Shown: positions 37,101-51,950 of the stretch, piece after piece | How the letters are laid out: the number at the start of each line of letters is the position of its first letter | Numbering within the stretch: the stretch's first letter is position 1 | From: Oscillospiraceae bacterium | Lineage (GTDB): Bacteria > Bacillota > Clostridia > Oscillospirales > CAG-382 | Assembly (NCBI GenBank): GCA_015065165.1 | Contig: SVQU01000006.1 | Coordinates: forward strand, 19,128-83,127 | Direction of reading: 5' to 3' | Length of the DNA: 64,000 bases | Program-made: the position numbers and the translations under genes | The notes under the pieces: model-generated | Told to the model about the DNA's origin: nothing | Databases searched by the model: none | What the model saw: the letters and a program-made list of their open reading frames with translations, nothing else

Positions 37101-37142
37101 CGAGGTGTGGCGCAATGGTAGCGCGCTTGCTTTGGGAGCAAG
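37101..37142 (+). tRNA. 5' half of a disrupted tRNA-Pro(UGG)
   Basis: CGAGGTG-TG-GCGC-AATGGTA-GCGC-G-CTTGC-TTTGGGA-GCAAG: acceptor 5' strand, D arm and anticodon arm present, no T arm follows. Confidence 0.85.
37129..37142. repeat. Left attachment-site-like core GCTTTGGGAGCAAG
   Basis: Exact 14-bp match to 45870..45883. Confidence 0.75.
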
Positions 37143-37242
37143 TGATATTCCCCTACTTCACCAATTGCACAAAAGCCGAAACCCCTTGATTTCACTTGAT
37201 TTTTTGTTGTTTTATTTTTTGTGTTTTTATCAAAAATGTGAT

Positions 37243-37268
37243 TTTGACCACAATTTTGACCACAATTG
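37243..37268. repeat. 26-bp island-end repeat, left copy
   Basis: TTTGACCACAAT-TTTGACCACAAT-TG, identical to 45727..45752. Confidence 0.9.
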
Positions 37269-37324
37269 ATTTACTTATTTATAAGCAATTTTCTACCATT
37301 ATATATTATAATTTAATAATATTT

Positions 37325-37400
37325 CGGGGTGTAGCGCAGTTGGGAGCGCGCGACATTTGGGATGTTGAGGCCGCAGGTTCGAACCCTGTCACTCCGACCA
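37325..37400 (+). tRNA. tRNA-Pro(UGG), intact
   Basis: CGGGGTG-TA-GCGC-AGTTGGGA-GCGC-G-CGACA-TTTGGGA-TGTTG-AGGCC-GCAGG-TTCGAAC-CCTGT-CACTCCG-A-CCA, complete cloverleaf with encoded CCA. Confidence 0.95.
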
Positions 37401-37463
37401 GAATAGCGGTTTTGACCGCATACGAAAGCCGCAAAGTAGGGATACTTTGCGGCTTTTCAAGTC

Positions 37464-38663
37464 TTGGAGGTTTATATGTGCATCTCGAAATATATATTTA
37501 GCAAAATCGGATTTATCATCAAGAAAAAAACTATTCGGAGGAAAATCGTGAAAAAACATAACTGGGTACAAAATATAAATTACAAAAAATTTATTGCACC
37601 ATTTGAAATTAGTTCTGGTAATCAATATCTTTCCGAACTAAAGACTCTATTAGACCTTTTTGTGGACGAACTAATAAATTGCAAAGCAGAAGAAACCATA
37701 GTTTCTGTTGCAAAACTTTACAGAGACAAAATTATTAATTCAATAGAACTGTATTATCAAGGAAATATTATAGATGCCCAAAGCACTATAAATGAACTAA
37801 TTGATGATTTTAGCGATGACTCCATTGCAATTTCGCATATTAATGACAGCATCGCCTTCCCTTCCCCGCGAAAGGGGGTTAAATCTGAGGTTCAATTCTT
37901 TAGAGCAAGACTTACCGAAAATGTAACAGATTTCCCTGCAAAAGATATGTTGCACATTCCATTTTCCAAACGCGATATTGTAAAGGGTGAACGTTTTAGT
38001 ATACCTGGATTACCTTGTTTATATTTGGCTAATTCAACATATACATGTTGGATTGAAATGGGTTGTCCTGCAGATCATAAATTTAATGTATCGCCTGTTG
38101 TGTTAGACAATACTCAAAGAATTTTCAATCTAACTGTATCTATACGCGACCTAATGGATTATACAACTATCGAAAACTCTGAAAACGACAACCATGAAGA
38201 GAGCATCATCGCCTTAATCAAGCTTTTAATGTTGTCGATGGGAACATCTTTCAACGTAGCTTCAGGTAGTGATCGCAACTTCAAGGCTGAATATATACTG
38301 CCACAAATGATCATGTTAGCCTGCAAACATAGGAACCTGGATGGTGTTACATACTATTCTAAGAAAGTTACAGATGATATTTTTGCACATGTTGTAGGTG
38401 TAAATTTAGTTTTGTTTGCATCTTATAACGGTGAAAAAGAACTTTCTAATATTTGCGAACATATTGAAATTAGCGATTCTTTTAATTATTCAATGTTTAA
38501 ACAATTAATGCCGAGTTTGCTTTGCAAATCATACGATCTGCGTATATTAGATTCTCCATATATAACTAATATCGGTTCGTTCGACCGACAGTTCCCTTAT
38601 CGAGAAACACAATTTTTCGCTTTTGATCAGTATTTATTTGCAAACTGGAACCGCGGGCACTAA
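37464..38663 (+). CDS. RES-domain protein (putative NAD+-targeting enzyme)
   Basis: FFRARLTE...GERFSIPGLPCLYLANSTYTCWIEMG...RNLDGVTYYSKK follows the spacing of RES-family R/Y/E/S residues. Confidence 0.7.
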   Translation: MEVYMCISKYIFSKIGFIIKKKTIRRKIVKKHNWVQNINYKKFIAPFEISSGNQYLSELKTLLDLFVDELINCKAEETIVSVAKLYRDKIINSIELYYQGNIIDAQSTINELIDDFSDDSIAISHINDSIAFPSPRKGVKSEVQFFRARLTENVTDFPAKDMLHIPFSKRDIVKGERFSIPGLPCLYLANSTYTCWIEMGCPADHKFNVSPVVLDNTQRIFNLTVSIRDLMDYTTIENSENDNHEESIIALIKLLMLSMGTSFNVASGSDRNFKAEYILPQMIMLACKHRNLDGVTYYSKKVTDDIFAHVVGVNLVLFASYNGEKELSNICEHIEISDSFNYSMFKQLMPSLLCKSYDLRILDSPYITNIGSFDRQFPYRETQFFAFDQYLFANWNRGH

Positions 38664-38680
38664 AAAGGATTGAGAATAGA

Positions 38681-39967
38681 ATGAAAAAAGAAATCAAAAA
38701 ATGTATTAAATACTATTTAAGAAATATCGATTCCGAGGCATTTCGGGAATACGTTAAAAAGTCCGAAGAAAATGGTACGAGAGTGCATCAAGAGTATATA
38801 AAAGAGAAAAAACCTCAATGGGCAAATCGCACTGATTATTTTGAGGAAAGCACTATTGCTCGGATTATCATTGGAGATGTTTTATCTAATGATGGGGTTG
38901 TTAAACTTTTAAAGAAACTTTATGCACTACCCAAAAATAAATTTAAAGTAAAAAACTATTACAAAAAGCCACCTTTAAAAAACAAGTATGATTATATACG
39001 TCTTCAGTATACCCACTCCGGAATAGGTAGATTTGCAGAAATCGAATTTTTAGATGATAAATATATCAAACGTATAGAAATCAGTTGGAGCCAAATCAAT
39101 AATTATTTTGCTTTTATAGAGTATTCTTTTTGGTTCCATAAGTGTTTGGACGAAACACTCTACGGCAATTTCATTTCTGAAAACCTGCCTAAATTGACAA
39201 AAAAAGATTATATTACTTGGTATCACATAAAGAATGACAAAGAAGATAAATACAAGGATAATTATATGGCGTTACAGCAAATGCACACTGAATTTTTCAA
39301 TGTTGTTTGCCAACACTATATAACTACCCTGTTGTATAGTGAGCAAGGATCTACTAATCTTCTATTAAACATTACATTTTTTGTGAGAGAGAAACCCATT
39401 GACATTTCGACCTTGTATATTAGTGATTTTGGGGAAGCGTTTTATAACCGAAAAGGGAATTACATTATAGTTAGTGATTTTCATGGCGATCGTCATTGTC
39501 TTTATTCTGGAAATAATAGGATTCCTAATTTTAATCCATGCGGATATATTTCTAAATACGGAAATGACTTTTACTATAAGTTTTTCGGAGAAAAAGAATT
39601 AAAGAATTTTGAATATGAATTTTCCAAATATACGAACGGAAGAACGAAAGCTAAATACAACAAAAAGATAATAAGACTTCTGAATAAAATTCAGAGTCTC
39701 TCTGATTACGAATATCCCAATTCTTCAAAATTTTACTCTGGTTTCAAAGAGTCTTGGGATTTCTATGTAGGTAACGAAACGGAAGATATCAAGAAATGGC
39801 ATGGTAATAATCTGAAAAAAATCAAAAATATTTTCGAAAAGAACTTTGAATACCTAAAGGTTCTTACCGAAATAAATTATACTCGGAGCAATCATTCGAT
39901 ATCCATTATTGCAGCTGTGATTTCTGTGGTAGCAACGATCATATCATTAGTAGCTATTTTTGTGTGA
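38681..39967 (+). CDS. Hypothetical protein with C-terminal transmembrane anchor
   Basis: 428-aa ORF 17 bp after the RES gene; terminal IIAAVISVVATIISLVAIFV. Confidence 0.65.
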   Translation: MKKEIKKCIKYYLRNIDSEAFREYVKKSEENGTRVHQEYIKEKKPQWANRTDYFEESTIARIIIGDVLSNDGVVKLLKKLYALPKNKFKVKNYYKKPPLKNKYDYIRLQYTHSGIGRFAEIEFLDDKYIKRIEISWSQINNYFAFIEYSFWFHKCLDETLYGNFISENLPKLTKKDYITWYHIKNDKEDKYKDNYMALQQMHTEFFNVVCQHYITTLLYSEQGSTNLLLNITFFVREKPIDISTLYISDFGEAFYNRKGNYIIVSDFHGDRHCLYSGNNRIPNFNPCGYISKYGNDFYYKFFGEKELKNFEYEFSKYTNGRTKAKYNKKIIRLLNKIQSLSDYEYPNSSKFYSGFKESWDFYVGNETEDIKKWHGNNLKKIKNIFEKNFEYLKVLTEINYTRSNHSISIIAAVISVVATIISLVAIFV

Positions 39968-40006
39968 TTTTCAAAATCCTTTTCTTTGTTTACTCCGAAC
40001 TAACCA

Positions 40007-40030
40007 TTGAGGGCGCCTTAATCGGCGCCC
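40007..40030 (+). terminator. Rho-independent terminator of the RES/428-aa gene pair
   Basis: GAGGGCGCC-TTAATC-GGCGCCCTC followed by TTTT; also overlaps the end of the integrase remnant. Confidence 0.75.
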
Positions 40031-40581
40031 TCTTTTAGTTTTGCTTTTTCTTCCTCTATTTCCGCTTTCTTGATTTTTATCATTTCGTCGAGCTTTTGTT
40101 CACATTCTTCAAGCGAATGTGTGTAGACGTTACAAGCAACTCTTTTGCCTTGTGCGTTGGTGGGCGTGTATCTACCTTCCCACAAGTTTTCTCCGATTCT
40201 ATAGATTCCACCAGTTCCGCTTCTTCTTATTTTACCTTTATATGGCTTAAACTCCACTTTCACGGGAGCTTTAGAATCTTCTATTGCCGTTATTTCAATT
40301 TCACTTTCTTCTATTATGGTGTCACTTCTGCACATATGTGCATCAATTTTCATCGCTGCATTATTAAGCATTTCGTTTGTAATGTGGCTATATATATCCA
40401 ACGTTGTTGACGATGACTTATGTCCTATAATTCGGGAGAGTGTTTTTATATCCATACCGTGTTCGAGAGCCATCGTAGCGAAGGTATGACGCAAATCGTG
40501 GAATCGTATTCTCTTGCAATCTGATCTTTCCAATATCTGCTGACATTTTCTATATAAATGATACCAAACAAATACTTCCAA
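40018..40581 (-). pseudogene. Tyrosine recombinase/integrase, 5'-truncated remnant
   Basis: FHDLRHTFATMALEHGMDIKTLSRIIGHKSSSTTLDIYSHIT catalytic C-terminus present, N-terminal domains absent. Confidence 0.85.
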
Positions 40582-40803
40582 TGAATGATAATAGATATAG
40601 CATTAGTTTTAAAGAAAAAGAACATTTTACTAAACTAATCTTTGGGGTTCCCATCAAAGATGTTTGCGAAGGAAAAATTGTTTCCCCAACCATAAGAAAA
40701 TTTAACAAATCATTCGTTTTTAAAGGAAGTAATGCAATTGTTGTTATTAGTAATAACAAATATACCTTCATGCACGACAACATAAGCATCGAATTTGCAT
40801 TAA

Positions 40804-43800
40804 ATGATGTTTTTAAAAAATTATCTAACAACACTATGCTTCAACAACAGCAAATCTCTTGCTGTAGTAAGCGACTTGGATTCTGAAGCTTATGCCTGCC
40901 AAACTATTAACGTGAAGAAAGAAGATTCTACACGCCAAACCTTTACCCTTTCCGGTTGGGCAAAAGGCGAAGGCATCATTGATCGTGAACGCGAAGCGTG
41001 TGAAAAGCCCTCGTTCTGTTTGCGTGCATGTATCAACTACAAATCCGGCGAATGTGAAGAACATATTGCAGAATTTTCGCCTTGCACTGATGGTTGGCAG
41101 TTTGCTTCGGTTGAATTCGCAAAGGAAAAATTCTGCGCTGTCGAGTCGATAAAGGTTTATTGCGACTATAGCAACAACGTCGGTACTGCATACTTTGACA
41201 ATATTCAGCTTGTTTGCAACTCTATCGAAACCGAACTTTTTGCAGACGACTTTACAACCATCAGCGAAGACTACTCCGCAGACGAAGATACCGCAGAAGA
41301 TACTTTCAATCCGGGCTTTAGCACCGAAGCAGAAGAAACTGATAGTGCGCCCGAATTCGAAGAAGCAAGAGATCCTCACGGTAATCCCTTCACCGAAACC
41401 AATTTTGTAGATGGCGAATTCGGTACAATCTATCGCTCGTTTAAATACTACAACGATATGGATCATATCGGCAACGACCTCACTTGCGAAACCGACCCCA
41501 GAGGTAACGAAACCAAATATGATGTAAATACAAATACTTCCAAAAACAACGCTGTTATCGACCGTTGCGGTAATAAAACCGAATACGAATATGACAGATT
41601 CGGTGAAGTATCTAAGGTAACCAGCTTTGAAAAAATCGGCGTAGATGACGAAGGTAATCCCATCTATCATCCCCTCGCAGACGTTTCCTATGCGTATTGC
41701 GAATTCGGTCAATTAGGAATGATCTCCCGTGGCGACGGCATGAAATATAACATCGATTATGACGAATTCAATCAACTTCAGGCGATCGGTATCAAGGGTA
41801 AGCCCGAAAAGCTTGTAAAATATGATTACAAGACCGGTTCCGGCAGACTTAAATCCGTAACCTATGCAAACGGTAACGTTATGTATGCTACCTACAACAG
41901 CATTGGTCAGATGATAAGCGAAACCTGGAAAGATACTGAAGACGGCAACATTATTGCATATTATAAATATGTTTATGACGGCAGCGGTAATATCGTAAGA
42001 AGCCTTGACATAGTTTCGGGAATTGAGTATACTTATACCTACGAGGAAGGCAGAATTGTTCGTGCTACCGAAACTGTTGTTATCTATGACAGCAACTGTA
42101 TCGCGGTTTCCAGAGGAGATACAAACACCATATTCTACAGCTATAATAACGAAGGTCAGCTTGTTAAAAAGCGTGTCGTTACTTCTGATGGTGCTGAACG
42201 TATCACCTACTATGAGCACAACGATGACAACACAATCGTTAAGTTCTCCGCAGGCGGTTTGAATGCCACTGCTCACAGCAAAACTGACGGTTTCGGCAGA
42301 AAGATTTTCGACGAAGTGCAGACCGGCAGAGGCTTTGTTTCCAGACAGTTTAGTTACCACGCAGGTGCTGTAACCGACGCTCACAAAGATTCGGACAAAG
42401 TTAAGTCCTCGCCTACCACACAGCTTGTAAGCCGTATTGAGCTTTCCGACGGCAGATCCCTTTCCTATGAATACGATGCTGAAGAACGCATCACCTCTGT
42501 TGTTGAGTCTTATGCTGTTGACGGTCAGCCTGTTACCAATACCATTCTTTACACTTACGATGCACTTGGTCAGCTTCTTACCGAAACGGTTAACGGTGTT
42601 GTAGTGAATGAAATGACCTATGACAATTACGGCAACATTCTTACCAAAAACGGCAAGATTTACACCTATGGCGATTCTGTTTGGAAGGATAAGCTTACCG
42701 CAATCGATGGTCAGGCTATTACCTATGATGCACAGGGCAACCCTGTTTCTTATCTCGGCCATGATTTGACGTGGGAGAAAGGCAGACAGCTTAAATACTT
42801 TGATGGTGTTTCTTACACCTACAATGCAAACGCCATTCGTACTTCTAAAACCGTCAATGGTGCAAAGCACACCTATATCTTAGACGGCACCAAGATTCTT
42901 CGTGAACATTGGATGGAATGCGCCACACCGCACACTATTACTCCTTTGTATGATAACGAAGACTCTGTTTGCGGTATCGACTACGGTAATCATACCTTCT
43001 ATTTCTTGAAGAACCTTCAGGGCGACGTTATTGCCATCGCAGACATCGAGGGCAATGTTGTTGGTCGTTACTCCTACGATGCTTGGGGCGTACCTACCAT
43101 TACTCAAGATAGCTCCTTCACAGTATGGGAAAAAGGCGTTGAGTTATATTCGTTCAATATTGCAGAAGTTAACCCCTTCCGTTACCGTGGTTATTACTAT
43201 GATAACGAAATTGGTTTGTACTATCTCCAAAGTAGGTATTACAACCCTGTAACTGGTAGGTTTGTGAATGCGGACATTCCTGAAATAATCGTCTTACATG
43301 GTAGATATTCTTTAAATGTAAACATGTATGCATATTGCAATAACGATCCAGTTATTGGCAACGATCCTATGGGAATGCTTGATGCAGCTGGCGCCGCAAG
43401 TTGGCTGAATGCAACTGATGTATTCAACATGTATGCACAAGACCTGTATACAGCTTATGCAGCAACTTTAACTAAAATTGGATTATATATAACAGCGTTT
43501 CTTACTCCTAAAGTAAGCGCAGCTTTTTGGTGGCAACCTTGGCTTATTGCAGGCATAGTGGTCGCAGCTGTTGCAATAGTAATTGCTTCTGTTGCAATTA
43601 TATATAATGCTAAAGTAAAGGAAAGAGAAAGAGAAAGACAAAAGTACCTAACGTCTGATAAAACGCTTTCTGATGTCAAGTTAAAACTGCAGTCCGGCAA
43701 GCATTATCACTTAGCCTATATTAGCAAGCAAGGCGAGTTATATAAAACCGGAAATAAAATGACCTTTGTTCAAGCTTTAATTGCATTAGGTATAACTGGT

Positions 43801-44052
43801 GCTGTTAACAGCATTACACGTAGGTACAAATACGACAAAACCAAATCTTCCACTGCCCAACGAACTCTCGAACATAAAGGTAATAGACAATGGGGCATAT
43901 ACGCTGATACTCAATCGGCTGCAAAAGCATTAGCTGTTGTTTTGGGTTCGTCAGAAAAACCCAAAGTGCATGGTTCGGGATATTATGGCCACTATCATGA
44001 TTTTACACACACTTTCCATATATGGTATGGTGGTAAAATCATATATAAATAA
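40804..44052 (+). CDS. RHS-repeat protein with RHS core and C-terminal toxin-like domain, apparently 5'-truncated
   Basis: Many YD-type repeats (YEYDRFGEV, YKYVYDGSGNIV, YTYDALGQL), core NPFRYRGYYYDNEIGLYYLQSRYYNPVTGRFVNAD, variable C-terminus ending GSGYYGHYHDFTHTFHIWYGGKIIYK; no signal peptide. Confidence 0.88.
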   Translation: MMFLKNYLTTLCFNNSKSLAVVSDLDSEAYACQTINVKKEDSTRQTFTLSGWAKGEGIIDREREACEKPSFCLRACINYKSGECEEHIAEFSPCTDGWQFASVEFAKEKFCAVESIKVYCDYSNNVGTAYFDNIQLVCNSIETELFADDFTTISEDYSADEDTAEDTFNPGFSTEAEETDSAPEFEEARDPHGNPFTETNFVDGEFGTIYRSFKYYNDMDHIGNDLTCETDPRGNETKYDVNTNTSKNNAVIDRCGNKTEYEYDRFGEVSKVTSFEKIGVDDEGNPIYHPLADVSYAYCEFGQLGMISRGDGMKYNIDYDEFNQLQAIGIKGKPEKLVKYDYKTGSGRLKSVTYANGNVMYATYNSIGQMISETWKDTEDGNIIAYYKYVYDGSGNIVRSLDIVSGIEYTYTYEEGRIVRATETVVIYDSNCIAVSRGDTNTIFYSYNNEGQLVKKRVVTSDGAERITYYEHNDDNTIVKFSAGGLNATAHSKTDGFGRKIFDEVQTGRGFVSRQFSYHAGAVTDAHKDSDKVKSSPTTQLVSRIELSDGRSLSYEYDAEERITSVVESYAVDGQPVTNTILYTYDALGQLLTETVNGVVVNEMTYDNYGNILTKNGKIYTYGDSVWKDKLTAIDGQAITYDAQGNPVSYLGHDLTWEKGRQLKYFDGVSYTYNANAIRTSKTVNGAKHTYILDGTKILREHWMECATPHTITPLYDNEDSVCGIDYGNHTFYFLKNLQGDVIAIADIEGNVVGRYSYDAWGVPTITQDSSFTVWEKGVELYSFNIAEVNPFRYRGYYYDNEIGLYYLQSRYYNPVTGRFVNADIPEIIVLHGRYSLNVNMYAYCNNDPVIGNDPMGMLDAAGAASWLNATDVFNMYAQDLYTAYAATLTKIGLYITAFLTPKVSAAFWWQPWLIAGIVVAAVAIVIASVAIIYNAKVKERERERQKYLTSDKTLSDVKLKLQSGKHYHLAYISKQGELYKTGNKMTFVQALIALGITGAVNSITRRYKYDKTKSSTAQRTLEHKGNRQWGIYADTQSAAKALAVVLGSSEKPKVHGSGYYGHYHDFTHTFHIWYGGKIIYK

Positions 44053-44058
44053 TCTCAA

Positions 44059-44475
44059 ATGAGGATAATTCATATGCAATGTTATGAAATGCTTTTACCA
44101 TATTTTAGATATTATAGAGATGAAGAAACATCTGATAACTTTTCGTGGTGGTTCTGTGTTTTAGATGAAAATATATACGAAACCAATGATATATACAAAG
44201 AATTTGGTTACACTTCAATATGCGACATTTGCGATTCGGGCAAATTCATCGAATTATACAAAGTAGATATTATTGAAACCAAAAAAGTATTTTTAAAGCA
44301 GTATCATCCAAAAAGTCAAATTTTGAACATTGAACATGACGGAGAATTCGATATTGCCTTTAACTCATTTATAGAAACCAGTTCCAGTTTAGATACATGG
44401 CAGGAATATGAAAAAGCTGTATTAGAATCAGCTCTATTGAAATGGAGTTCAGATAATAATATCATAATTTATTAA
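44059..44475 (+). CDS. Candidate immunity protein for the RHS toxin
   Basis: 138-aa acidic ORF 6 bp after the RHS stop, same strand. Confidence 0.5.
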   Translation: MRIIHMQCYEMLLPYFRYYRDEETSDNFSWWFCVLDENIYETNDIYKEFGYTSICDICDSGKFIELYKVDIIETKKVFLKQYHPKSQILNIEHDGEFDIAFNSFIETSSSLDTWQEYEKAVLESALLKWSSDNNIIIY

Positions 44476-44602
44476 ATTAATCTATGACACTAATAAGTTT
44501 TTAGTTTTGGTATGGGAATGATATTATGGTCATTTCGAACATTGTATATTAACGAATAATAACTCATTATTTTGACATAATATTTGCAATTTTCATTCCA
44601 AT

Positions 44603-44640
44603 GTGATATAGTGTTTTCATAGTAGAACACACTATATCAC
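44603..44640 (+). promoter_or_regulatory. 12-bp inverted repeat overlapping a probable -10
   Basis: GTGATATAGTGT-N14-ACACTATATCAC; TTGCAA-N17-TATAGT promoter-like spacing. Confidence 0.55.
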
Positions 44641-44655
44641 ATTCGGGGGATTTCT

Positions 44656-45042
44656 ATGAAAATCAAAACTATTGCTTTGTTACTTGTTGCGGTATTATGC
44701 TTTTCTTTAACTGCGTGCGGCGAAAGTGAAGCTAAACGTCCAATTGATTACCCAAACAGCAAATGGTCTTGCGATGTTGCCAGTATCACTTTTTCGGTAT
44801 CGGATGATGGAAAAATCATCGATGCAACTATGGTAGATAAAGACGACAACACGTTGCCGATTTCAATTGTTTTTTCTGATACCGATGAAAACAAGGTAAC
44901 CATAACCAATGCTGATGAAACCGAAACATATCTTTCCGGCACTTTTACATCCAGCAAAGACAAGTTCGTGATAACAGTAACCGATATTTACAATACGAAT
45001 CTTAGTATTTCTTCCAGAAGTTTGATATTCAAACGTTCATAA
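44656..45042 (+). CDS. Small lipoprotein
   Basis: MKIKTIALLLVAVLCFSLTACGESEAK lipobox; RBS-like CGGGGGA upstream. Confidence 0.75.
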   Translation: MKIKTIALLLVAVLCFSLTACGESEAKRPIDYPNSKWSCDVASITFSVSDDGKIIDATMVDKDDNTLPISIVFSDTDENKVTITNADETETYLSGTFTSSKDKFVITVTDIYNTNLSISSRSLIFKRS

Positions 45043-45049
45043 CTCAAAA

Positions 45050-45085
45050 AAGAACCATCTGTTCAATCTCGAACAGATGGTTCTT
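45050..45085 (+). terminator. Rho-independent terminator
   Basis: AAGAACCATCTGTTC-AATCTC-GAACAGATGGTTCTT. Confidence 0.8.
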
Positions 45086-45193
45086 ATTATTTTTACCGCA
45101 TAGTTTTAATATTTGAATGATACTTATTATACTCTTGAAATTTCACAAATAAATGTTATAATATTATAAATCGACGACAATACTGAGGTTCTT

Positions 45194-45682
45194 ATGAAAG
45201 TTTCTGAATTAAGGCTTAATGATATAAAAGAAGTTAACGGTTCTATTAAATCATTAAAAACCAAAGAAATTATCAATAAAATAACGCTGAGTTTTGATAT
45301 TTCTTCAAGAAAGAAACTTGCCAAGTTATTTATTTGCAATATTGTTACACCAGATGTGCAAAATTTGTGTATCGAACAATTATCTATAGAACAATCCGGG
45401 AACGAACTATTAACCAGAGGTCAATCTTCTTATGTCGATACCAAAACAGGATTTGTTTTATTTCCTCAAAGAACTTCCCCGCCCCACTTCGAAGCAACAT
45501 TTCAAGCTAAAACGGCATCAACTACAGATACACAACGCTGTTACGATATAGAAATGAATTTCGGCGATTTTTCATTCGACTTTTCAACCTCAGAAAAAAT
45601 CGAACATGCCGATAAAATAATCTATAAAAATGTAAACTTGCTGATTCACCCTAGCGACAATATAGTAAAGGTTTTGGAATAA
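45194..45682 (+). CDS. Hypothetical protein
   Basis: 162-aa ORF in island; no recognised domain. Confidence 0.55.
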   Translation: MKVSELRLNDIKEVNGSIKSLKTKEIINKITLSFDISSRKKLAKLFICNIVTPDVQNLCIEQLSIEQSGNELLTRGQSSYVDTKTGFVLFPQRTSPPHFEATFQAKTASTTDTQRCYDIEMNFGDFSFDFSTSEKIEHADKIIYKNVNLLIHPSDNIVKVLE

Positions 45683-45726
45683 GTTTCTTAACCATGTGTA
45701 TCCATTATATGTAATTTTGATTTTTG

Positions 45727-45752
45727 TTTGACCACAATTTTGACCACAATTG
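45727..45752. repeat. 26-bp island-end repeat, right copy
   Basis: Identical to 37243..37268. Confidence 0.9.
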
Positions 45753-45869
45753 TAACCCGAACAGAAAAAACAAACGGAATATATGTTTCAAAAATGCGAA
45801 TTTTTGGCTGGAAAACATAACGAAAAGAGCCAAAATAATGCTTTTTTACCCAAAAAATGTTCTCGGAGC

Positions 45870-45916
45870 GCTTTGGGAGCAAGATGCTGCAGGTTCGAGT
45901 CCTGTCACTTCGACCA
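45870..45916 (+). tRNA. 3' half of a disrupted tRNA-Pro(UGG)
   Basis: GCTTTGGGAGCAAG-ATGCT-GCAGG-TTCGAGT-CCTGT-CACTTCG-A-CCA; complements the 37101 half. Confidence 0.85.
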
Positions 45917-47521: not shown

Positions 47522-47583
47522 TTTCTGTTGTATAGACTTTTAAGTTAGGTACTTCTTTGAGGTATCAAATTGACAGAGGGCTA
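47522..47583. repeat. 62-bp direct repeat, copy 1
   Basis: TTTCTGTTGTATAGACTTTTAAGTTAGGTACTTCTTTGAGGTATCAAATTGACAGAGGGCTA; 2 mismatches to 49204..49265. Confidence 0.9.
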
Positions 47584-49203: not shown

Positions 49204-49265
49204 TTTCTGTTGTATAAACTTTTAAGTTAGGTACTTATTTGAGGTATCAAATTGACAGAGGGCTA
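49204..49265. repeat. 62-bp direct repeat, copy 2
   Basis: See copy 1 at 47522..47583. Confidence 0.9.
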
Positions 49266-49587: not shown

Positions 49588-50190
49588 TTACATATCCATC
49601 AAAGGCAAGCGGAAAATCATAATTCGTTCTCTACTGTCGTTACCGTCAAAAAGGTCGCCACAGTCTATTTCGTCGTAAAATTCCAGCTCGTTCACCGTGG
49701 TAAGGTAACACATATACTCGCTTGATGGATAATAGAAAAACAAAAACATTTCCCTTGGGGCGGTATAATAGGATTCGATAATTCTTGCCATAACCGAACG
49801 AAGAATCTCCACGGAAAATGGGTTGAAGAAATAGCACCTATTGACATCTTGCGGAACTTCGAATTCTTCTGCACGAGTGGCTACAAAATCTGCCTTTGCT
49901 CTTGCCGTTTTTAGATTTCCTATGGCACGGGCATAAATTCGCTCGTCGTATTCAATTCCTATGGTCTTGGCTTTCGCCTGATACGAGAGGAAAAAGGAGA
50001 CACGACCTTTCCCACAGCCATAGTCCAAAACCACATCGCCCTTACGAATAAATCCACTGTTCGCCAAGCGTTCCAAAACACAGTAGGGCGTTGGCTCGTA
50101 GGGATAACGGTACATGTCAGCATTGCTGTCATCCCGACCGCTTGTTTTTATGTTTAACAGCTTGTCCCATGCATTTTCGTTATCTATCAT
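49588..50190 (-). CDS. Class I SAM-dependent methyltransferase
   Basis: VVLDYGCGKGRVSFFLS motif I, GIEYDERIYARA, FFNPF. Confidence 0.85.
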   Translation of the reverse strand: MIDNENAWDKLLNIKTSGRDDSNADMYRYPYEPTPYCVLERLANSGFIRKGDVVLDYGCGKGRVSFFLSYQAKAKTIGIEYDERIYARAIGNLKTARAKADFVATRAEEFEVPQDVNRCYFFNPFSVEILRSVMARIIESYYTAPREMFLFFYYPSSEYMCYLTTVNELEFYDEIDCGDLFDGNDSRERIMIFRLPLMDM

Positions 50191-50942
50191 TGTTCGCCTC
50201 TGTATTTACGTAAAATCTCCATAATATCACACTCATACATGTTTCCGCCGAGAACGTCGCCGTTTGGTGAGAACGAAACACAATGCACGTCGTGCGAGTC
50301 TTCGATATACGGATTCTTGGGAAGCTCATCCGTAAAATACTCGGCGAGATATTTCAGCGCATTACCCTCGGGGAAAATGATATTTCCCTCTCCCACCGGA
50401 ATCTCCATATCGCCAAAGCTGTTAAGTATTTCTCTCGTTTTGCGGTTGTATGGGTTATCATCAGTCTTGCTTACCAACCACGCAGGTTGAAGGCGCATTG
50501 GAATACCTTTTTTCTTTGCTTCATCGGCAAAAACTTTAACCGCTTCAAGCGGAATAGTTTCCTGATGAAAGGCATCAACAGAAAGAAGCAAATCGTTCAC
50601 GCCACATTGGGCAAGACGCTCTGAAACTTCGCAAATCTGCTCGACATTCTTTGAAAAGTAACCGTTGGTTATTACCTGGCGTTTAGGAATATTCAGTTCC
50701 TTTGCAGCGTTCATAATTTCATAGACGGCATCTGCATACAAAAGCGGTTCTCCGCCGAAAGTCATCACAGTTTTGATGTTATACTCCGCCGCAATTTTTC
50801 GCACCGCATCTGCGGCAATTAGCGGATCGATTCGCTCACCGCAAGAGGTATGATCGCCCTCGGAGCAGTGTTTACACCGACCTGTGCAGGCGTAGGTTAC
50901 GACGAACTCGATTTTGTTTAGGTTTTTAAGGTATTGGTTCAT
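50187..50942 (-). CDS. Radical SAM protein
   Basis: CTGRCKHC (CxxxCxxC), MTFGGEPLLYADAVYEIM; start at MNQYLKNLNK. Confidence 0.9.
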   Translation of the reverse strand: MNQYLKNLNKIEFVVTYACTGRCKHCSEGDHTSCGERIDPLIAADAVRKIAAEYNIKTVMTFGGEPLLYADAVYEIMNAAKELNIPKRQVITNGYFSKNVEQICEVSERLAQCGVNDLLLSVDAFHQETIPLEAVKVFADEAKKKGIPMRLQPAWLVSKTDDNPYNRKTREILNSFGDMEIPVGEGNIIFPEGNALKYLAEYFTDELPKNPYIEDSHDVHCVSFSPNGDVLGGNMYECDIMEILRKYRGEQ

Positions 50943-50943
50943 A

Positions 50944-51315
50944 TTAGTCTTTGATGTAAGTATCGATCGCATCCGCTACAAATTCGGCGGTTCCTTCGCC
51001 GTATTTGTCGATGTTATTCTTGAATCGCTCGTCGGCGGTGTACATCTTACCAAGCCCTGCAAGAATATCATCCGTGCAGGTGTAGTAGTTGGCGGTGATG
51101 TGAGATTGAAGTTTTTTAACAAGCGCCTGTGCTTCGGCAGAATCGGCAGTTACGCCGCTATTTTTGAGCGTTGCAAACTCGGCAAAAATAGCCATCAAAC
51201 CATCGTTTGCTTCCGCCCATTTTTCTTTTGAATAGTTATTTGTTTTCTCGGTATATTCGGTATAGGCGTCGGTATTTCCAAAGCGTTCTTTAGTTTCATT
51301 TGAATAGTTATTCAT
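50944..51315 (-). CDS. Stand-alone TipAS-type antibiotic-recognition domain protein
   Basis: NETKERFGNTDAYTEYTEKTNNYSKEKWAEANDGLMAIFAEFATL...HITANYYTCTDDILAGLGKMYTADERFKNNIDKYGEGTAEFVADAIDTY; no MerR HTH. Confidence 0.85.
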   Translation of the reverse strand: MNNYSNETKERFGNTDAYTEYTEKTNNYSKEKWAEANDGLMAIFAEFATLKNSGVTADSAEAQALVKKLQSHITANYYTCTDDILAGLGKMYTADERFKNNIDKYGEGTAEFVADAIDTYIKD

Positions 51316-51950
51316 TTATTTACCTCCGAAAAATATTTATAGGTCATAACAAGTCCCGAGCTAAGCAGAGCGCCACCGATGATGTCGGTTATCCAATGCA
51401 CCCCCGAAAGAATTCTTGCAACAACCATAAAAGCGGCAAATGAGTTAATCACAAATGAGGCAAAACGCTTTACGATAAGGTTTCTGATTCGGGAGTTTAT
51501 CTGCATTGATGCCGTTGGCATTACGCAAAGGACAAGCATTGTAGTTGACGAGGGATATGATGCTTCGAGATAACCGTCGATAATTATAGGGCGATAATTT
51601 ATAACGACAAATTCGAAAAGAATATACGCCATTATTACAGCGATATAGAAACCACCGAGAGCGAGAATATCGCGGTCTACCTTTAACAAGTTTCTTCTTT
51701 TTATCAACTGTGAAAGCCCGAGAATTGCAAAATCCAGGGCGATAAATATGGGAACAAGACCTAACCAATCGGTTATTGTGTAAAGGCGCATATTAGTTCC
51801 CGTTAGGTTGTGGACAAAGCCGTTTAGTGTGGAAAAACCCACAGAGGTTTCCTTTGGTCCGATTGCTTTCACGTCCACAAAACGCAGGAGCAATGTCCAG
51901 ACGATAAAGGATGCGAACAGGGAGAATGTGAGAATCGGTTTCTTTTTCAT
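51312..51950 (-). CDS. PAP2 family phosphatase
   Basis: Multi-TM, ASYPSSTTMLVLCV and ARILSGVHWITDIIGG. Confidence 0.85.
   Translation of the reverse strand: MKKKPILTFSLFASFIVWTLLLRFVDVKAIGPKETSVGFSTLNGFVHNLTGTNMRLYTITDWLGLVPIFIALDFAILGLSQLIKRRNLLKVDRDILALGGFYIAVIMAYILFEFVVINYRPIIIDGYLEASYPSSTTMLVLCVMPTASMQINSRIRNLIVKRFASFVINSFAAFMVVARILSGVHWITDIIGGALLSSGLVMTYKYFSEVNK

Follow-up and report, generated by a model that had tools for sequence, protein, structure and literature searches.

tRNA-dependent lysogeny has been proved experimentally in mycobacteriophages, which use cores of 8–17 bp and require the phage tRNA (Guerrero-Bustamante and Hatfull 2024, mBio; PMC10865867). The principle of integration dependent on a carried tRNA is already known from those actinobacteriophages, the only phages listed in that paper, whose authors also mention a possible example in Lactobacillus, prophage Lj965, and speculate that plasmids might integrate in tandem into a carried tRNA. 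As far as that paper's account of it goes, the Lactobacillus johnsonii prophage, which likewise comes from a Firmicute, was reported not to rebuild its tRNA and to carry a cognate one. Canonical tRNA-gene islands (Islander, PMC4383910) share with the element described here site-specific insertion into a tRNA gene, a direct repeat at both ends and a recombinase gene; however, they restore the target at one junction, whereas neither junction of our element contains a complete tRNA. Tycheposons of Prochlorococcus and Methylophilaceae (PMC10872708) are also cargo islands bordered by a complete tRNA and associated with a tyrosine recombinase; their hosts and tRNAs are different, and the likeness to our element is one of description only. 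A literature search whose coverage took in the minority of subscription papers found no Clostridia or tRNA-Pro cases of tRNA-dependent integration.

We analysed a stretch of 64,000 nucleotides from an Oscillospiraceae bacterium (assembly GCA_015065165.1, contig SVQU01000006.1), called the window below, in whose positions all coordinates are given. The first-pass annotation of this DNA had read 37325–37400 as an intact tRNA with a UGG anticodon, carried by an island that had disrupted a host copy and differing from that copy in acceptor, anticodon stem and variable loop; all of this was upheld. The host gene is called A and the carried gene B, and the element, 37129–45869 (~8.74 kb), contains B. 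The features of the locus are:

37101–37142, + strand: 5′ part of A, to the end of the left core; from the sequence, joins with 45870–45916 into a tRNA identical to that of genome G002
37129–37142, + strand: attL core, GCTTTGGGAGCAAG, anticodon loop and stem; exact second copy at 45870–45883
37143–37324, + strand: left end of the element between the attL core and B; aligns with 38 other left ends
37243–37268, + strand: candidate arm-type repeat TTTGACCACAATTTTGACCACAATTG, left copy; exact 26-bp copy at the right end
37325–37400, + strand: B, the element-carried tRNA-Pro(UGG); ARAGORN and RF00005; 76/76 bases identical in G092 and G241
37464–38663, + strand: cargo, RES-domain protein (Pfam PF08808, E = 1.5e-5)
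38681–39967, + strand: cargo, 428-aa protein; no family match
40018–40581, − strand: tyrosine recombinase remnant, C-terminal part (PF00589, E = 2e-13)
40804–44052, + strand: cargo, RHS-repeat protein with RHS core domain (PF05593, TIGR03696)
44059–44475, + strand: cargo, 138-aa protein directly after the RHS gene; listed by position, no family match
44656–45042, + strand: cargo, small lipoprotein-like protein, from its sequence
45194–45682, + strand: cargo, 162-aa protein to which family searches assigned no function
45727–45752, + strand: candidate arm-type repeat, right copy; exact copy of 37243–37268
45870–45883, + strand: attR core, GCTTTGGGAGCAAG; exact copy of the left core
45884–45916, + strand: 3′ part of A (variable loop, T arm, acceptor, CCA); from the sequence, completes A when joined

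A is another tRNA-Pro(UGG), split in its anticodon loop by insertion of the element into a 5′ part (37101–37142) and a 3′ part (45870–45916), with the 14-bp core repeated exactly at the two junctions. When the flanks were joined by script they gave one complete tRNA-Pro(UGG) that matches the intact G002 gene at 75 of 75 bases and differs from the G006 gene at one base. The left copy of A has no T arm and was not called by ARAGORN; RF00005 gave 31.3 bits for 37101–37189 (cut-off 29), from the D and anticodon arms only. By both methods a complete tRNA is absent from attL and from attR alike: a core of 14 bp is too short to rebuild the gene, the 5′ part ends without a T arm, and it is the joined flanks that rebuild A. 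Genomes G002, a congener, and G006 each have an intact A, one tRNA-Pro(UGG) and no B. Because the same upstream gene, a small gene with a decarboxylase-beta-like domain common to the window, G002, G006 and G020, lies beside their tRNA, these are empty sites of the window locus, and A without B was the arrangement in two of the two empty sites read. The first-pass annotation had reasoned that its view would fall if island-free strains had B beside an intact A; this arrangement was looked for and not found in either genome, which are 68% (G002) and 81% (G006) complete. Contig C67 of G020 (L032), where the neighbouring gene upstream is again that of the window, has an intact tRNA-Pro(UGG) and, ~180 bp before it, the 5′ part of a tRNA-Pro that unrelated sequence interrupts.

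B starts 182 bp past the end of the left core and was identified as an intact tRNA-Pro with anticodon UGG by ARAGORN and by Rfam RF00005 (61.6 bits, E = 9e-12). Its acceptor (CGGGGTG/CACTCCG v. CGAGGTG/CACTTCG in A), anticodon stem and variable region are all unlike those of A. A whole-genome count of tRNA-Pro genes, which the first-pass annotation had recommended, gave one UGG gene, namely B, one CGG and one GGG (RF00005 on the whole genome, and ARAGORN on 30 of its 37 matches, the others being the broken A and six of about 80–88 bases, the size of tRNA genes with a long variable arm). As the assembly is in 42 contigs and 97% complete, an overlooked second UGG copy is unlikely. By established decoding rules a CGG or GGG tRNA is not expected to read CCA, and since the source genome has one tRNA-Pro each of UGG, CGG and GGG, B can be expected to be the only gene found there that reads this codon, which is rare but used (it makes up 12 of 310 proline codons across 15 window ORFs). 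We claim no promoter for B, because a scan upstream of it gave one weak match that was no better than those in shuffled sequence.

Near each end of the element the 26-bp repeat, with two TTTGACCACA motifs inside it, occurs once, and it may be an arm-type recombinase binding site. The left end of the window element aligned with 38 others, 39 in total, and the alignment shows conservation of a TTTGACCACA block and of a GCCGAAA..CCCTT stretch; the TTTGACCACAATTTTGACCACAATTG motif is kept in most element left ends. What the window element retains of its recombinase is a C-terminal remnant of 187 aa, 53% identical over 175 aa to residues 313–487 of the intact integrase of G342, whereas related elements have intact pairs; no close full-length relative of the remnant was found elsewhere in the source genome. 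Because only this remnant is left, the window element is probably fixed, and its own history had to be read from its relatives. Its cargo, judged from predicted domains, is of toxin-like genes; no phage structural genes were recognised among them, and the window element was not classed as a temperate phage. At 40804–44475 the RHS-repeat protein, which has a divergent C-terminus, is followed by a small gene, an arrangement like that of polymorphic toxins and their partners; the 138-aa protein is possibly the partner or immunity protein. Downstream of the element lie two 62-bp direct repeats (47522–47583 and 49204–49265), 97% identical and 1.7 kb apart, and, at 49588–51950 on the − strand, genes for a radical-SAM protein (weakly like a YydG-type peptide epimerase), a methyltransferase-like protein and a membrane phosphatase-like protein, possibly a modified-peptide cluster. 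A reading of 50187–50972 as 'viperin' was rejected; the radical-SAM peptide epimerase model scored better, both being far below cut-off.

In 394 genomes of the order we looked for a tRNA-Pro start lying 139–191 bp after an anticodon-loop core. The pattern matched 75 genomes and the reversed pattern three. Site classes were assigned by eye, as the random control of an automatic 5′-half score was contaminated (short loci full of tRNA). By this assignment a broken 5′ half, ~150–195 bp of intervening DNA and an intact tRNA-Pro(UGG) were present in 45 of the 394 genomes, from 12 families, and a half followed by a second half, that is a stack, at 14 sites in 13 genomes; as the pattern was literal, the counts of 45 and 13 genomes are probably lower bounds. 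Other matches were due to chance, to tandem intact tRNAs of other types, to contig ends, or to a core following non-tRNA sequence, a class that would fit tandem insertion at an existing right junction. The genomes surveyed are mostly draft assemblies from metagenomes, and in G188 and G208 the 5′ half shows partial decay. In one human-faecal contig the stack is three halves deep and is accompanied by an intact tRNA and two recombinases. The 3′ half is complementary to the local 5′ half, both in the acceptor and in the anticodon stem, in G131, G248, G216, G148, G095 and G241; for G182, G233, G162 and G126 the search turned up a 3′ half of a different type, and these mismatches would need extra nested insertions or deletions. 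For tRNA-Pro(CGG) the same layout occurred in none of 147 genomes and on one metagenomic contig only. At locus L313 (MT835887.1, reverse complement, about 2270–2545) a tRNA-Pro(CGG) 5′ half is cut in the anticodon loop at core TTCGGGAGC, and an intact AGG-anticodon tRNA-Pro follows after ~160 bp, along with two recombinase genes; this relative may swap one proline isoacceptor for another.

The first-pass annotation had also asked whether the tRNA always co-occurs with the island, and for the class the answer is given by the 45 genomes, in which the intact tRNA beside the 5′ half is nearly always the sole UGG copy. Searched with a pattern for the intact gene, 41 of these carriers had one tRNA-Pro(UGG) and none had two; the other four gave no match, the T loop of their carried tRNA being a variant outside the reach of the pattern. 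This first pattern misses GATGTGGC-type tRNAs, and a looser one was run on 27 genomes; it found a second intact UGG copy in G190 (contig C42:7503) and two intact copies in G347 (the second at C1:1375127), one of them 20 kb away, and these two genomes are exceptions to the one-copy rule. Carried tRNAs are also shared between families. G092 and G241, in which B is identical, belong to another family and have it beside a broken half, so that one sequence is common to families f1 and f10. The 49 carried tRNAs comprise 23 distinct sequences, one of them shared without change by 11 genomes from 6 families, and their likeness to the broken half of their own genome was hardly greater than to the halves of other genomes (81% v. 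79%; seven were identical).

Near the carried tRNA two adjacent tyrosine recombinase genes were found in G131, G182, G342, G248, G208, G190 and G092; the pair was checked by Pfam in G131 and by PHROGs in G342, and the elements of these two genomes have restriction-modification genes. In the viral contig L255 (IMGVR_UViG_2924261002_000004, IMG/VR) tail and lysis genes stand directly beside a stacked array of core, half and intact tRNA, the last differing from B at one base. The G342 integrase used as a query in viral contigs gave no confirmed locus. Judged by gene content, the family is one of cargo islands as well as phage, not phage alone. We noted that Flavonifractor-type elements (L162, L268, L097 and L089) keep a T-arm-like stretch, GAGGCCGGAGTTCGAGCC, after the core in their left end, as though the element had formerly been able to rebuild the tRNA and had ceased to do so after gaining a complete one.

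We propose that the window element very probably belongs to a family that integrates into the anticodon loop of tRNA-Pro(UGG) and whose carried tRNA takes over and becomes the next target. The recombinases of such elements would catalyse recombination at one specific site, the anticodon loop of a gene usually present as a single copy. Integration would destroy the target, because the shared core is too short to rebuild it, and the complete tRNA-Pro(UGG) about 150–195 bp inside the left end of the element would take over decoding. Because it has the same anticodon loop, the carried tRNA would become the next attachment site, a step to which the stacked halves in 13 genomes point; later elements would insert into it, and 5′ half-tRNAs would stack on the left. 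Precise excision would restore the old tRNA, and loss of the carried tRNA alone should be lethal or harmful, for which reason the element would be self-stabilising. In the source genome the recombinase has decayed and the carried tRNA would now be the resident gene; B is presumably expressed and charged, and essential in that it complements the broken A. With these steps the words 'compensating' and 'self-stabilising', which the first-pass annotation used of the island, would be apt.

The same annotation had allowed that B could be an original tandem host tRNA-Pro, with the element having landed between or inside A and B. A few genomes do have true tandem UGG pairs (in G036, for example, two copies are 240 bp apart), but B lies between attL and attR, so that with one insertion only it is part of the element; in G002 and G006 the shared upstream gene stands beside A and no B; and half and intact tRNA occur together in 45 genomes, with conserved element left ends. 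The island-free congeners, and tRNAs identical to B beside broken halves in another family, contradict a host origin of B, which we dismissed as extremely improbable. No more credible is a living left fragment, in which the element would supply a degenerate 3′ part and A would work without a normal T arm. Its RF00005 score is just above the cut-off, a T-arm-like stretch follows the core in some relatives, and ARAGORN accepts that of G347; yet RF00005 leaves the T-arm region of the window fragment unmatched, with several acceptor pairs broken, ARAGORN makes no call there, and most relatives have no T arm after the core. A working left-hand A was rejected for want of that arm.

The tRNA might instead be a passenger, giving resistance to an anticodon nuclease or serving the element's own translation, with the loss of A tolerated and its codons covered by other proline tRNAs. 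Such roles have precedent in phage tRNAs that evade tRNA-cutting defence, published work as cited in PMC10865867. The scarcity of CCA codons in the window ORFs and the presence of CGG and GGG tRNAs in the source genome would agree with a passenger; however, at the 45 verified sites the carried tRNA is an isoacceptor of the broken gene, lies next to attL and is nearly always the sole intact UGG copy. Neither of the other two tRNAs is expected to read CCA, and we regard the passenger explanation as unlikely. Replacement of the broken gene by the carried one is the reading we retain.

With the tRNA-dependent lysogeny of actinobacteriophages (PMC10865867) the Clostridia elements have in common a tyrosine recombinase, of which the window element has the C-terminal remnant, an attB inside a host tRNA gene, a short core, and a carried tRNA that matches the broken gene, A and B both being tRNA-Pro(UGG), as in the 45 genomes. 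The actinobacteriophages belong to a different phylum and use Lys, Ile and Leu tRNAs, whereas the Clostridia elements use tRNA-Pro(UGG); unlike them, the latter have two adjacent recombinases, a tRNA 150–195 bp from the core, toxin-like or restriction-modification cargo in most cases read, and natural serial stacking. What appears to be new is the Clostridia/tRNA-Pro(UGG) family, the presence in it of both cargo islands and phage, stacking that occurs naturally, and the spread of a probably essential host tRNA.

tRNA-dependent integration would extend from actinobacteriophages to a widespread family of gut Clostridia that moves toxin-like and restriction-modification cargo and also includes phage. 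Island finders that seek a restored tRNA are expected to miss such islands or to place their bounds wrongly. The arrangement is present in two sequenced Flavonifractor genomes (AGMB03687 and An82), which makes it testable. An element that destroys its target and brings a new one would have a self-renewing attachment site. We think it likely, with more reserve than for the mechanism itself, that in many lineages of this gut Clostridia order a probably essential tRNA-Pro(UGG) is now the property of mobile elements, whose copies replace the chromosomal gene, cross families and serve as landing sites, while stacks of 5′ halves record the order of integration; a core translation gene would in this way have been replaced horizontally and repeatedly, leaving a readable record of the events.
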